Origin: Gudongella oleilytica
Lineage (GTDB): Bacteria > Bacillota > Clostridia > Tissierellales > Tissierellaceae
DNA: 64,000 nucleotides
Direction: 5' to 3'
Assembly: GCF_004101785.1 (NCBI RefSeq)
Contig: NZ_CP035130.1
Coordinates: forward strand, 434,001 to 498,000
Notes under the pieces: generated by a model
Database searches by the model: none
What the model saw: the letters and a program-made list of their open reading frames with translations, nothing else
Told to the model about the DNA's origin: nothing
Shown here: in pieces, positions 14,451-18,254 of the stretch
Numbering within the stretch: position 1 is the stretch's first letter
How the letters are laid out: each line of letters opens with the position of its first letter
Made by a program: the position numbers and the translations under genes

Positions 14451-14486
14451 GTATCCTGACATGCTAAAATGGAGAGAAGGATATTG

Positions 14487-15668
14487 ATGGACAGACAATA
14501 CAAAAAATTAATGATCATATCTGTGTTCCTTTGGTTAGCTACCAACTTCCACCACCCTGTAAATCCTACGTATTTTACGGAGCTGAACTTGCCAAATCAT
14601 GTTTTTGGAACTTCCATGGCATTTATGGTTTCGGCTGTTTTCCTGACATCACCCATCTGGGGAAGCCTGGGAGATAATTATGGCAGAAAGAAGACACTGG
14701 TATACTCCACTCTTCTTTACGGCATGACCCAGATTGCATATGGTATGTCCACACAGCTTTGGCACATACTCCTTTTACGTGCAATAGCGGGAATGTTCAG
14801 CGGAGGCTTTATGGTAGGATTTCTCGCGGCTGTTGTGGATGTATCTGATGAATCCAACAGAGCTGAGAGAATAGCAGCATTTTCAGCGGTCATGAGCGTT
14901 TCAATGTCCATTGGATTTCTGATCGGAGGGATACTTGGATATCTTCCAGTGAGGTATGTATTCTATATCCAGGGATTGGTGATGATGGCGGTGAGCCTTG
15001 CAATACATTTGACCTTGGGAGAGACTAATTCACCTACGGGAAAGAGCACCAAGCCTGACTTTATCTGGAATATTTTAAAGGATAAGGATAAATCAAAGGC
15101 GGTATTCACCCCATGGATCTTGATATTTCTGGGAGTGACCCTCTTTGTATTTATAGCTTACTCAAGCAACACGAATGCCTTCAACTATTATCTGAAGGAG
15201 CAACTGGATTTCAAGCCAATAGTCAACGGTATATGGAGAGCAGGGACTGGAATATTCGGACTTATAGCAAATCTTACTATAAATGTGTGGCTGGCAAGAA
15301 ACTACAAGGGAAAGAATGCTTTTGTAATTTTCCTAAGTTTTACTCTATTAGGTGCAATTATGATATTCGCAAATACAAGTATAATTCCGTTCATGGCGTG
15401 GAGTCTTTTCTACTTTACTATGCATACTGTGCTTTTCCCAATGCTCCAAAGCTTTGCAGTAAAAAGCACAGAGTATGGTGCTGGATTTATGTCAGGCTTG
15501 TTCAGTGCCTCCAGGTCATTGGGCGAAATGCTGGGTGCCCTTATTGCAGGTTTTGCATACGGAATAGGCAACAGGGTCCCGTTCCTGCTGTCCATAATCG
15601 CCATCGCGATCGCACTGGTTCTCGGGATCATGCAGCTAACTATAAGAACCGGGAAAGAAAGTAATTGA
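14487..15668 (+). CDS. Major facilitator superfamily transporter
   Basis: Predicted 393-aa inner-membrane secondary transporter with about 12 hydrophobic segments. The loop after helix 2 reads GSLGDNYGRKKTLVYS, the MFS motif-A pattern GxxxDrxGRkk. Nothing identifies the substrate; drug/metabolite exporters are the commonest relatives of this size. ATG 14487 is chosen because GAGAAGG lies 6 nt upstream; an in-frame ATG at 14469 lacks a good ribosome site. It stands alone between the REP-like palindrome and a separately promoted microprotein gene. Confidence 0.85.
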   Translation: MDRQYKKLMIISVFLWLATNFHHPVNPTYFTELNLPNHVFGTSMAFMVSAVFLTSPIWGSLGDNYGRKKTLVYSTLLYGMTQIAYGMSTQLWHILLLRAIAGMFSGGFMVGFLAAVVDVSDESNRAERIAAFSAVMSVSMSIGFLIGGILGYLPVRYVFYIQGLVMMAVSLAIHLTLGETNSPTGKSTKPDFIWNILKDKDKSKAVFTPWILIFLGVTLFVFIAYSSNTNAFNYYLKEQLDFKPIVNGIWRAGTGIFGLIANLTINVWLARNYKGKNAFVIFLSFTLLGAIMIFANTSIIPFMAWSLFYFTMHTVLFPMLQSFAVKSTEYGAGFMSGLFSASRSLGEMLGALIAGFAYGIGNRVPFLLSIIAIAIALVLGIMQLTIRTGKESN

Positions 15669-15693
15669 AATTGGAAGACCAAACACTTAAAAT
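15665..15693 (+). promoter_or_regulatory. Promoter of the microprotein gene
   Basis: TTGAAA at 15665-15670, 17 bp, TAAAAT at 15688-15693. It overlaps the MFS stop codon. One of the cleanest sigma-A matches in the window, which supports the short reading frame as a real gene. Confidence 0.65.
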
Positions 15694-15725
15694 TAAGATA
15701 ATAAGAATTGGAAGGGAATGATTTT

Positions 15726-15815
15726 ATGAAAGCAAAGAGAACTGTATCAGTAGTGCTGGCCATAATCATGGTGGTGGCCATGATAGTGCCGATGCTGTTA
15801 AATGCATTCTATTAA
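15726..15815 (+). CDS. 29-aa single-pass membrane microprotein
   Basis: Short frame MKAKRTVSVV...LLNAFY, with a positively charged N-terminus (Lys2, Lys4, Arg5) and one hydrophobic stretch from about residue 7 to 26, so probably N-in. It has every mark of a gene: its own promoter (15665-15693), an AAGGG Shine-Dalgarno 9 nt before the ATG, and an intrinsic terminator beginning at the stop codon. In size and layout it resembles the Firmicutes membrane miniprotein Prli42 (stressosome anchor in Listeria) or DUF4044 proteins, but the match is too short to assign. Its neighbours, an MFS permease and a Lon-like protease, are separate transcription units and give no functional hint. Confidence 0.7.
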   Translation: MKAKRTVSVVLAIIMVVAMIVPMLLNAFY

Positions 15816-15838
15816 ACCAGGTATACGCCTGGTTTTTT
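15815..15838 (+). terminator. Intrinsic terminator of the microprotein gene
   Basis: Perfect 7-bp stem AACCAGG / CCTGGTT with a 6-nt loop and a run of Us. The stem starts within the stop codon. Confidence 0.85.
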
Positions 15839-15865
15839 GTTTGCAAAAAAAAAGATGGGTATAAA
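15837..15865 (+). promoter_or_regulatory. Promoter of the Lon-like protease gene
   Basis: TTGTTT at 15837-15842, 17 bp (mostly A), TATAAA at 15860-15865. It begins in the U-run of the preceding terminator. Confidence 0.5.
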
Positions 15866-15899: not shown

Positions 15900-18254
15900 A
15901 TGAAGGATAAGTACAGAGTGATGCCGGAAGAGCTGACCAGTCCATGCAACATGGAGCTTCTTGATTTCCAGACCACTGAGTCTGTCGCGCCTCTTAAGGG
16001 GATAATCGGGCAGGATAGAGGTGTCGATGCCTTAAGCTTTGGACTTAAGATGAAGAAGAAGGGCTATAATATATATGTAGCCGGATTGAGCGGAACAGGA
16101 CGCAGCAGCTTCACTTATTCCATAGCATGTGATTTCGCAAAAAACCAGCCTGTTCCACAGGACTGGGTCTACGTCTATAATTTCAATAAGAAGGAGTCCC
16201 CCAAGGCGCTGCCTTTTCAACCTGGTCAGGGTAAGAATTTCAAAAAAGACATAGAGGACCTGGTGGAGGGCTTTAAGAAGACTATTCCTGAAGCATTTTC
16301 AGGGATCGAGTATGAGAACAGAAAAAACAACCTATTCAAAATAGCCAACCAGAAAAAAAGTGAGGTCTTAAAGAAGCTAAATGAGAAATCCCAGGAGTAT
16401 GGCTTCGTATATACTCCAAGCGACCAGGGACTTATATCGATACCCCTAAAGGAAGGAAAGCCCATAAACGAGCAGGAATACAGCTCATTGTCGCTTGAAG
16501 AGCGCGAGGGGATGATGGAGAAATATGAGGAGCTGAGGATCGCTACAGTCGAAGAGTTCAATGACCTCAGGCTGCTGGATGAGGAACTGGAGGATCATCT
16601 AACTCAGCTGGATGAGCATATGGCAAAGGAGCTTATCCAGTATGACATAAAGAAGCTGCTGAACAGGTATGGAAGCATACCCTCCACTGCCATATATTTA
16701 AACGAGCTTGAGAAGGACATCATTGAGAATATTGAGAAGTTCAAGCCTAAGGCGGCAGCGAAGAATTTCTCGCTATTTGATATCCAAATGCCCCCAGACG
16801 ATAATTTCTTCATCAGATACAAGGTCAACCTCTTTGTTGACAACAGCCAGCTGGAACACGCTCCCATCATAAATGAATCAAACCCGGTATACAACAACCT
16901 GATGGGAAGTATTGAATACAGGAGCCATATGGGGATCCTGACAACAGACTTCATGCAGATAAAGCCTGGATCTCTCCATCAGGCAAATGGCGGCTATATC
17001 GTATTCCAAATGAAGGAGATACTGAATAACCCCATATCCTGGGAAATGCTTAAGAGGTCACTAAAAACCAATGAAATCAATATCGAGAACTACAATCGCC
17101 TTATGGGTATGGCCGTCACTTCAAGTCTTAAGCCCGAGCCCATACCTCTTGACGTCAAGGTAATCATTATCGGAGATGATTATACCTACAGCCTCCTCTA
17201 CAACTACGATGACGACTTCAGGAAGCTTTTTAAGGTCATGGCGGATTTCGATATAGAGATGGAGAAGAATCCCGAAAACATAGGGAGGATGGCAGAATTT
17301 ATATCTGCCCATACAAAGGAAAGCGGCATCAGACCCTTCGACAAGGCTGCTGTGGCAAGAGTAGTGGAATTCAGCACAAGGCTTGCCGGCCACCAGGGAA
17401 AGCTAAGCACTCAATTCAATCAAATAATTGAGATATTATACGAAGCTGACCTGTGGGCAGAGCAGGACGGTAGCGGGATCATCACCGAGAAGCACGTGAA
17501 GACAGCAATAGACGGCAAAATAAAGCGATCCAACAAGTATGAGGAAAAGCTCAATGAAATGTTTGTCGAAGGTACCCTCCTTATCGATCTGGATGGCGAG
17601 GAGGTAGGCCAAATCAACGGACTGGCTGTTATGGGGACAGGGGAATACAGCTTCGGAAAGCCAAGCAGGATAACGGCTACCGTATATAGGGGCGAGAAGG
17701 GAGTAATCAACATAGAACGGGAGGCTCGCCAAAGTGGGAGGATACATGACAAGGGAGTACTCATTCTAAGCGGCTATCTTGGACAAAAGTATGCTCAGAA
17801 AAATCCGTTGGGCCTGACCATAGGGATCGGCTTTGAACAGAATTATTCAGTAGTCGACGGTGACAGTGCCTCCAGTACAGAGCTCTATGCGATACTGTCG
17901 TCTATCTCAGAGGTCCCAGTCAAGCAGTATATAGCCGTAACAGGATCAGTGAACCAGAAGGGTGAGATACAGCCTATAGGCGGGGTAAATGAGAAAATCG
18001 AAGGCTATTACCAGGTTTGCAGGATAATGGGACTTACAGGCAAACAGGGAGTGCTGATACCAAGAACAAACTTAAACAATCTGACATTGAGGGAGGAAGT
18101 GGTTGAAGCAGTAAGAAACGGTGAGTTTCACATATATGCTATCGACCATATAGATCAGGGGATCGAGGTGCTGATGGATAAGACTGCAGAGGAGATAGAT
18201 CAGCTTATTAATAGGAAGCTGGAATCCATGTATTCCCAGGAGGAGGAAAAATGA
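15900..18254 (+). CDS. Lon-like ATP-dependent protease (COG1067 / LonB type)
   Basis: 784-aa AAA+ protease of the soluble Lon-like family common in clostridia. The ATPase motif GLSGTGRSS (62-70) is a Walker A with Arg instead of Lys, usual for this family as I recall. A long helical insert (about 110-260) follows. The C-terminal S16 protease domain holds the catalytic Ser in the segment DGDSASST and the Lys in the segment PIGGVNEKIEGYY, the Ser-Lys dyad. It probably degrades damaged or regulatory proteins in the cytoplasm; the substrate is unknown. The start at 15900 follows GGGAGGG; a longer frame back to 15837 has no ribosome site and would run through the promoter. Confidence 0.88.
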   Translation: MKDKYRVMPEELTSPCNMELLDFQTTESVAPLKGIIGQDRGVDALSFGLKMKKKGYNIYVAGLSGTGRSSFTYSIACDFAKNQPVPQDWVYVYNFNKKESPKALPFQPGQGKNFKKDIEDLVEGFKKTIPEAFSGIEYENRKNNLFKIANQKKSEVLKKLNEKSQEYGFVYTPSDQGLISIPLKEGKPINEQEYSSLSLEEREGMMEKYEELRIATVEEFNDLRLLDEELEDHLTQLDEHMAKELIQYDIKKLLNRYGSIPSTAIYLNELEKDIIENIEKFKPKAAAKNFSLFDIQMPPDDNFFIRYKVNLFVDNSQLEHAPIINESNPVYNNLMGSIEYRSHMGILTTDFMQIKPGSLHQANGGYIVFQMKEILNNPISWEMLKRSLKTNEINIENYNRLMGMAVTSSLKPEPIPLDVKVIIIGDDYTYSLLYNYDDDFRKLFKVMADFDIEMEKNPENIGRMAEFISAHTKESGIRPFDKAAVARVVEFSTRLAGHQGKLSTQFNQIIEILYEADLWAEQDGSGIITEKHVKTAIDGKIKRSNKYEEKLNEMFVEGTLLIDLDGEEVGQINGLAVMGTGEYSFGKPSRITATVYRGEKGVINIEREARQSGRIHDKGVLILSGYLGQKYAQKNPLGLTIGIGFEQNYSVVDGDSASSTELYAILSSISEVPVKQYIAVTGSVNQKGEIQPIGGVNEKIEGYYQVCRIMGLTGKQGVLIPRTNLNNLTLREEVVEAVRNGEFHIYAIDHIDQGIEVLMDKTAEEIDQLINRKLESMYSQEEEK

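Follow-up and report, generated by a model that had tools for sequence, protein, structure and literature searches.

Prli42, for which Impens 2017 is said to be the founding paper, is among the closest described counterparts of the microprotein analyzed here: in both, about 30 residues are arranged as a basic tail followed by a single helix that runs to the C terminus. According to one account, Prli42 binds RsbR through three residues of its basic tail (K4, K5, and R8), and in Listeria this contact is essential for surviving oxidative stress (PMC6614362). A later study states, however, that deletion of prli42 in Listeria caused no stress phenotype, with stress resistance remaining similar (PMC9840623), and RsbR1 and RsbS are described elsewhere as mainly cytosolic (PMC7705745); the role of Prli42 in Listeria is thus disputed. 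DUF4044 (PF13253), a group of Gram-positive microproteins of unknown function, shares with our protein its size and one-helix design. The present study confirms by sequence comparison that a 29-residue frame encodes what is predicted to be a conserved membrane microprotein. The best reading, which we hold with slightly better than even confidence, is that it would act as a single-pass membrane adaptor and may be a diverged relative of Prli42 that works independently of the stressosome.

The gene was found in the window, by which we mean the whole 64-kb stretch of DNA analyzed, between genes for a transporter and a Lon-like protease (Table 1). All of the elements named in the original prediction, namely a promoter-like site, a Shine-Dalgarno sequence, a start codon, a one-helix frame, and a terminator at the stop codon, are present in the sequence. 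The further claim that together they carry far more signal than chance would supply needs to be divided. The combination of frame, Shine-Dalgarno sequence, and helix does go beyond chance: the protein reaches a hydropathy of 3.15 over 17 residues, and among frames of 24–40 codons on both strands of the 64 kb only two join a Shine-Dalgarno sequence (by our own motif list) to a stretch whose hydropathy exceeds 2.6; with the limit at 3.0, the microprotein alone is left. The promoter, in contrast, was overrated, since such sites occur at a chance number (10 found in the surrounding 4 kb versus 7.1 ± 3.2 expected), and 2.5% of 100-nt segments hold a site of at least 10/12. A real promoter is favored because 9/12 sites at −62 in G001 and G002, which belong to the window's genus, lie one base away from the site at −61 in G000. 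G013 has a 10/12 site at another position (−46), and no site of 9/12 or better is present in the 110 nt searched in G003, G019, and G025. The terminator hairpin has a folding energy of −12.5 kcal/mol (z −3.3). Hairpins of differing sequence follow or overlap the stop codon in G003 (z −3.6) and G013 (z −4.0), and that of G001 is more distal and not significant (z −1.2). Most homologues are preceded by purine-rich stretches, G190 being a clear exception.

Table 1. Features of the microprotein locus, in window coordinates
Feature	Position	Strand	Details
Upstream neighbor, MFS transporter gene	14469–15668	+	Stop codon (15666–15668) overlapped by the promoter-like site
Promoter-like site TTGAAA-17-TAAAAT	15665–15693	+	TTGAAA 15665–15670, TAAAAT 15688–15693
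Shine-Dalgarno sequence GGAAGGGA	15710–15717	+	Purine-rich; read from sequence
Predicted 29-aa single-pass membrane microprotein	15726–15815	+	ATG at 15726, 29 codons, TAA at 15813–15815
Intrinsic terminator	15814–15838	+	Begins within the stop codon; 9-bp stem and 4-nt loop (15814–15835), then T-run
Box TGGGTATA, possible separate promoter element of lon	15856–15863	+	After the terminator, ahead of lon; GGGTAT at 15857–15862
Downstream neighbor, Lon-like protease gene, LonB/LonC type	15900–18254	+	AAA_32, LonB_AAA-LID, LonC_helical, Lon_C

Relatives of the frame were sought at several taxonomic depths, for which we use the labels g1 (the genus of the window), g11 (another genus of its family), and f4 (a second family of the same order); judging from the names of matching genomes, f4 is probably Peptoniphilaceae and the order Tissierellales. 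BLAST detected the frame in three other g1 genomes (71, 41, and 41% identity), so that it is present in all four g1 genomes examined, and a profile search found it in all three g11 genomes. This profile, A1, comprised eight sequences, including one from f4 (G047) and the doubtful G009. Across 249 genomes of the order, A1 matched a frame no longer than 51 codons in 67: the window's family contributes 7 of its 28 genomes, and f4 contributes 60, from 14 genera; some f4 genomes gave no match to it. A scan of named genomes returned five loci, which belong to Peptoniphilus nemausensis, two species of Aedoeadaptatus, and two Bacillota MAGs. Because A1 already contained G047 and G009, a six-sequence profile drawn from g1 and g11 only was also tested. 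With this profile each of the 35 f4 copies outranks the 8188 other six-frame segments taken from these loci, and 33 copies also outscore every one of the 80 shuffles, in a test where some selection remains, the copies having been gathered with A1. In the reverse direction, a profile made from f4 only regained seven of eight candidates from the window's family. The eighth, G009, has a frame with a long C-terminal extension and was rejected as a family member; it stays in A1 and in the context counts and is excluded from A2 and from our claims. One shuffle reached 26.0 bits with the f4 profile, near G000 (26.6) and over G003 (24.3), and composition alone therefore carries far. A class-wide search gave matches at E up to 0.001 in 64 of 391 genomes, many of them within long frames. 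Twenty of these matches, two from f4 (G115 and G120), were inspected, and despite several look-alikes no class-wide short frame was counted, because convergence is possible at such scores. The libraries searched hold no Pfam or NCBIfam family of the microprotein's own, and a search among solved structures found none. Annotation programs usually skip genes this tiny, and the openly licensed literature, as far as it was consulted, yielded no description of the family, which is weak evidence of novelty. With this frame, a lineage to which human-associated anaerobic cocci belong gains a protein family that is conserved and unannotated.

The pattern of substitution is that of a protein. Over 21 pairs, in which two genomes are used twice, synonymous differences fall at 216 of 432 sites and nonsynonymous differences at 186 of 1422 (pS 0.50 versus pN 0.13). 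Since the pairs are not independent, the associated p-value is no more than indicative. The weakest constraint, a ratio of 0.48, is found in the pair G117–G119. The gene is almost certainly protein-coding on this evidence, and the comparisons indicate that it is under purifying selection, with relatives in its own genus, in another genus of its family, and in a second family. The conservation with synonymous bias that the original prediction had looked for in relatives was therefore seen in g1, g11, and f4, it backs the reading of the frame as a one-helix membrane microprotein, and neither a lack of conservation nor frameshifts indicating a small RNA were encountered. The spacing of about 140 nt between the promoter-like site and the terminator would suit a small RNA or a 3′-UTR product in which the frame is incidental. 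However, synonymous changes far exceed amino acid changes, the frame is kept as the nucleotides diverge (pS 0.83 versus pN 0.17 between G000 and G003), the terminator hairpins differ in sequence, and Rfam gives no match in the window or in L001. The substitution pattern and the absent Rfam match rule this explanation out, and we assign it next to no probability.

The protein is very probably a single-pass membrane protein, judging by its predicted layout: a short basic N-terminal tail and one hydrophobic helix extending nearly to the C terminus, with a near-invariant methionine and proline inside the helix. In 40 sequences, the first key basic position is K/R in 39 and the second, four places on, is R/K in 35; a small residue is alanine in 33, and the methionine and the proline are each present in 38. 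Of the two key basic positions, the window's protein keeps the first and carries a valine at the second. The lengths of the homologues, G009 aside, are 26–38 aa. A Fourier test for helical periodicity of conservation was not significant (p 0.14, 0.31, and 0.21), and a post hoc test on the five, six, and seven most conserved columns gave p 0.002, 0.06, and 0.03, so that a one-sided conserved helix face is only suggested by the alignment.

The original prediction had allowed a resemblance to Prli42 in design only, and this view has to be revised in part. Prli42 has about 31 residues and a transmembrane helix near its C terminus, and the window's protein, with 29 residues and one helix, agrees with this plan. 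Moreover, 12 of the 40 family members match the Prli42 model (NF033880) at E up to 1. Some f4 members align in register, and the highest-scoring of them, G189 (E 1.2e-5, 25.0 bits), does so end to end, residues 4–32 lying on model positions 3–31 of 31. Among 80 shuffles in which charged residues and prolines stay at their positions, only 1 matches the model (E 0.06); in-register matches are thus more frequent among the members than among shuffles. However, no member reaches the curated cut-off (27.5 bits), and the window's own protein has no match to the model. Membrane segments of long unrelated proteins from 60 genomes reach 22.9 bits, a score that G189 alone exceeds among the member scores seen, the next being 19.5. 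Because unrelated natural membrane segments score this high, we rate the chances about even that the family is a diverged relative of Prli42, a distant kinship that would fall short of membership. The residues themselves can be compared only in outline: Prli42 has K4, K5, and R8 in its tail, and the family has its two basic positions four apart, of which the window's protein keeps the first; the helix proline, also set against Prli42, was counted on the family's side alone. As for DUF4044, 2 of the 40 members match it weakly (best E 8.8e-4), the window's protein gives no match and does not reach the gathering cut-off, and membership is rejected; in the phylum, 1 of 199 genomes has a DUF4044 match over the cut-off. 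Other weak matches of family members are to MSC_0882 (NCBIfam, 4/40) and DUF6520 (Pfam, 8/40).

A second difference from Prli42 lies in the cellular setting. RsbR calls for a STAS protein of greater length, and RsbS for an additional STAS protein. In every one of 42 carriers, the search (E up to 0.001) gave a single STAS match, whose frame spans 101–151 codons; with one short STAS protein apiece, no stressosome was found in them, as judged by the number and frame length of STAS matches. The tethering of RsbR ascribed to Prli42 should therefore not apply in these bacteria, and the partner should be something else. A further 25 genomes, including seven that carry a second microprotein considered below (group B), have one to three STAS matches in frames under 170 codons, except for a 540-codon frame in G010. 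In G000 and G047 the STAS gene follows gyrA and is followed in turn by genes read as rsbW and a σ-factor of the σB/F type, and a SpoIIE-domain phosphatase, RsbU-like in our reading, occurs in 29 of 29 genomes tested. The σB module of the order would, in our reading, be a reduced one, consisting of an RsbU-like phosphatase, RsbV, RsbW, and SigB. It is a speculative and rather doubtful extension of these observations that Prli42-type microproteins are widespread Gram-positive membrane adaptors whose original job was not the stressosome, and that here, beside a reduced σB module, they may link the membrane to that module or to another core process. If the kinship to Prli42 is true, bacteria in which no stressosome is detectable would offer a natural test of a stressosome-independent role for such peptides.

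The genes around the frame change with the lineage. An MFS gene lies upstream in five of the six other g1 and g11 genomes (G001 has another gene there), with an SRAP gene standing between it and the microprotein in g11. Downstream, every g1 and g11 genome but G025, whose contig ends first, has a LonB/LonC-type protease gene (six of seven). The usual order in f4 is a radical SAM gene, a gene for a small P-loop protein, the microprotein, and DUF6648, with the first two genes in 25 of 35 loci and DUF6648 in 23; in 7 of the 35 this context is replaced by recX, which the frame overlaps or abuts. No partner gene is common to the contexts across lineages. A same-strand gene ends 1–30 nt before the frame, measured to the match start, in G003, in all three g11 genomes, and in 22 of 35 f4 loci, where the frame looks co-transcribed, an operon member more than a free-standing gene. 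The description of the gene as self-contained is thus not a general one.

In the window, the order of promoter, short frame, terminator, and lon is what would be expected of a leader peptide whose translation sets terminator formation ahead of the protease gene, and in G013, a g11 genome, the final codons form part of the hairpin stem. However, conservation acts on the protein sequence and not on codons, lon adjoins the microprotein only in g1 and g11 and does not appear within three ORFs of it, in either direction, at any of the 35 f4 loci, and past the terminator lon is preceded by its own box. In addition, 10 of the 16 lon loci of the window's family that have upstream sequence lack the frame; together with the different f4 contexts, this argues against a fixed association of the peptide with lon. 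Attenuation of lon is largely refuted by these comparisons and now seems extremely improbable. As to the box itself, GGGTAT, which we take to resemble the σB −10 element, lies 34–48 nt upstream of the lon match start in 9 of the same 16 loci, namely in the window and at the corresponding place in L091–L095, L097, L098, and L102. Its window-wide rate is about 0.006 per 20 nt, and no shared −35 element was seen.

A short hydrophobic peptide with SRAP or recX genes adjoining it in some lineages might also be a type I toxin or an SOS-induced membrane peptide, and a LexA-like GAAC-N4-GTTC site with one mismatch does occur 282–306 nt upstream in four of the seven recX-context loci. Those four are close relatives, however, and no mismatch-free site is present within 1500 nt upstream in 43 loci, on which grounds SOS induction was rejected. 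Furthermore, each of the 67 matching genomes has a single short-frame match, and 25 f4 loci share the same operon, unlike mobile toxins. We regard this reading as very improbable.

A more serious alternative is that the protein serves one particular membrane complex as a small accessory subunit, in which case the basic tail would have no adaptor role and the family no kinship to Prli42. Helpers of this type, such as CydX and AcrZ, have the same anatomy, the near-invariant methionine and proline within the helix are what helix packing would lead one to expect, and the narrow range of lengths also fits. Set against this are the first basic position, kept in nearly every sequence, and the neighbors, which are unrelated by lineage (MFS and Lon; radical SAM, P-loop protein, and DUF6648; RecX), so that the partner is probably not encoded next to it. 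We consider an accessory subunit possible, though on balance unlikely. In the preferred reading of a membrane adaptor, the positive-inside rule would leave the basic tail in the cytosol upon insertion, where it could dock a cytosolic partner or a larger protein, and the part of the helix bearing the methionine and proline may contact another membrane helix. That the adaptor works through its basic tail is a tentative proposal to which we give somewhat less than even weight.

Another conserved microprotein with one helix, termed group B, occurs in 7 of the 28 genomes of the window's family (L200–L205 and L209–L215), and in these seven no window-type microprotein is found at E up to 0.003. Group B, with the consensus M-N-Q-S-K-L-T-K-I-V-I-Y-L-L, resembles the window's group in being short, with one helix and a basic tail, but differs in its context: an M17-type aminopeptidase gene lies upstream on the other strand in six of six loci viewed and a ZIP-type transporter gene downstream in five of the six. 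All five group B proteins tested match Prli42 below the cut-off (E 7e-5 to 5e-4), matches that are circular because the Prli42 model itself found the group. Joining group B to the window's family was rejected: a shuffled control gave a higher probability (72.5%) than the real alignment (31%), and the profile scores lie within the shuffle range.

Several minor observations attach to the loci surveyed. The P-loop protein that precedes the microprotein in f4 (L115, 3512–3937) is conserved, at about 141 aa, and receives from Pfam only a sub-threshold AAA_14 match. Group II introns often insert behind terminators, and in G025 a match to a group II intron domain (RF02001; L025, 5017–5072) lies about 100 nt past the microprotein stop codon, at E 0.0064; it is truncated by the end of the contig, and its 29.2 bits fall short of the gathering score (32). 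Similar short one-helix frames are present in other Clostridia (L173, L175, and L176); the frames of L175 and L176 are flanked by genes that, in our reading, resemble those for DivIVA on one side and the diadenylate cyclase CdaA on the other.
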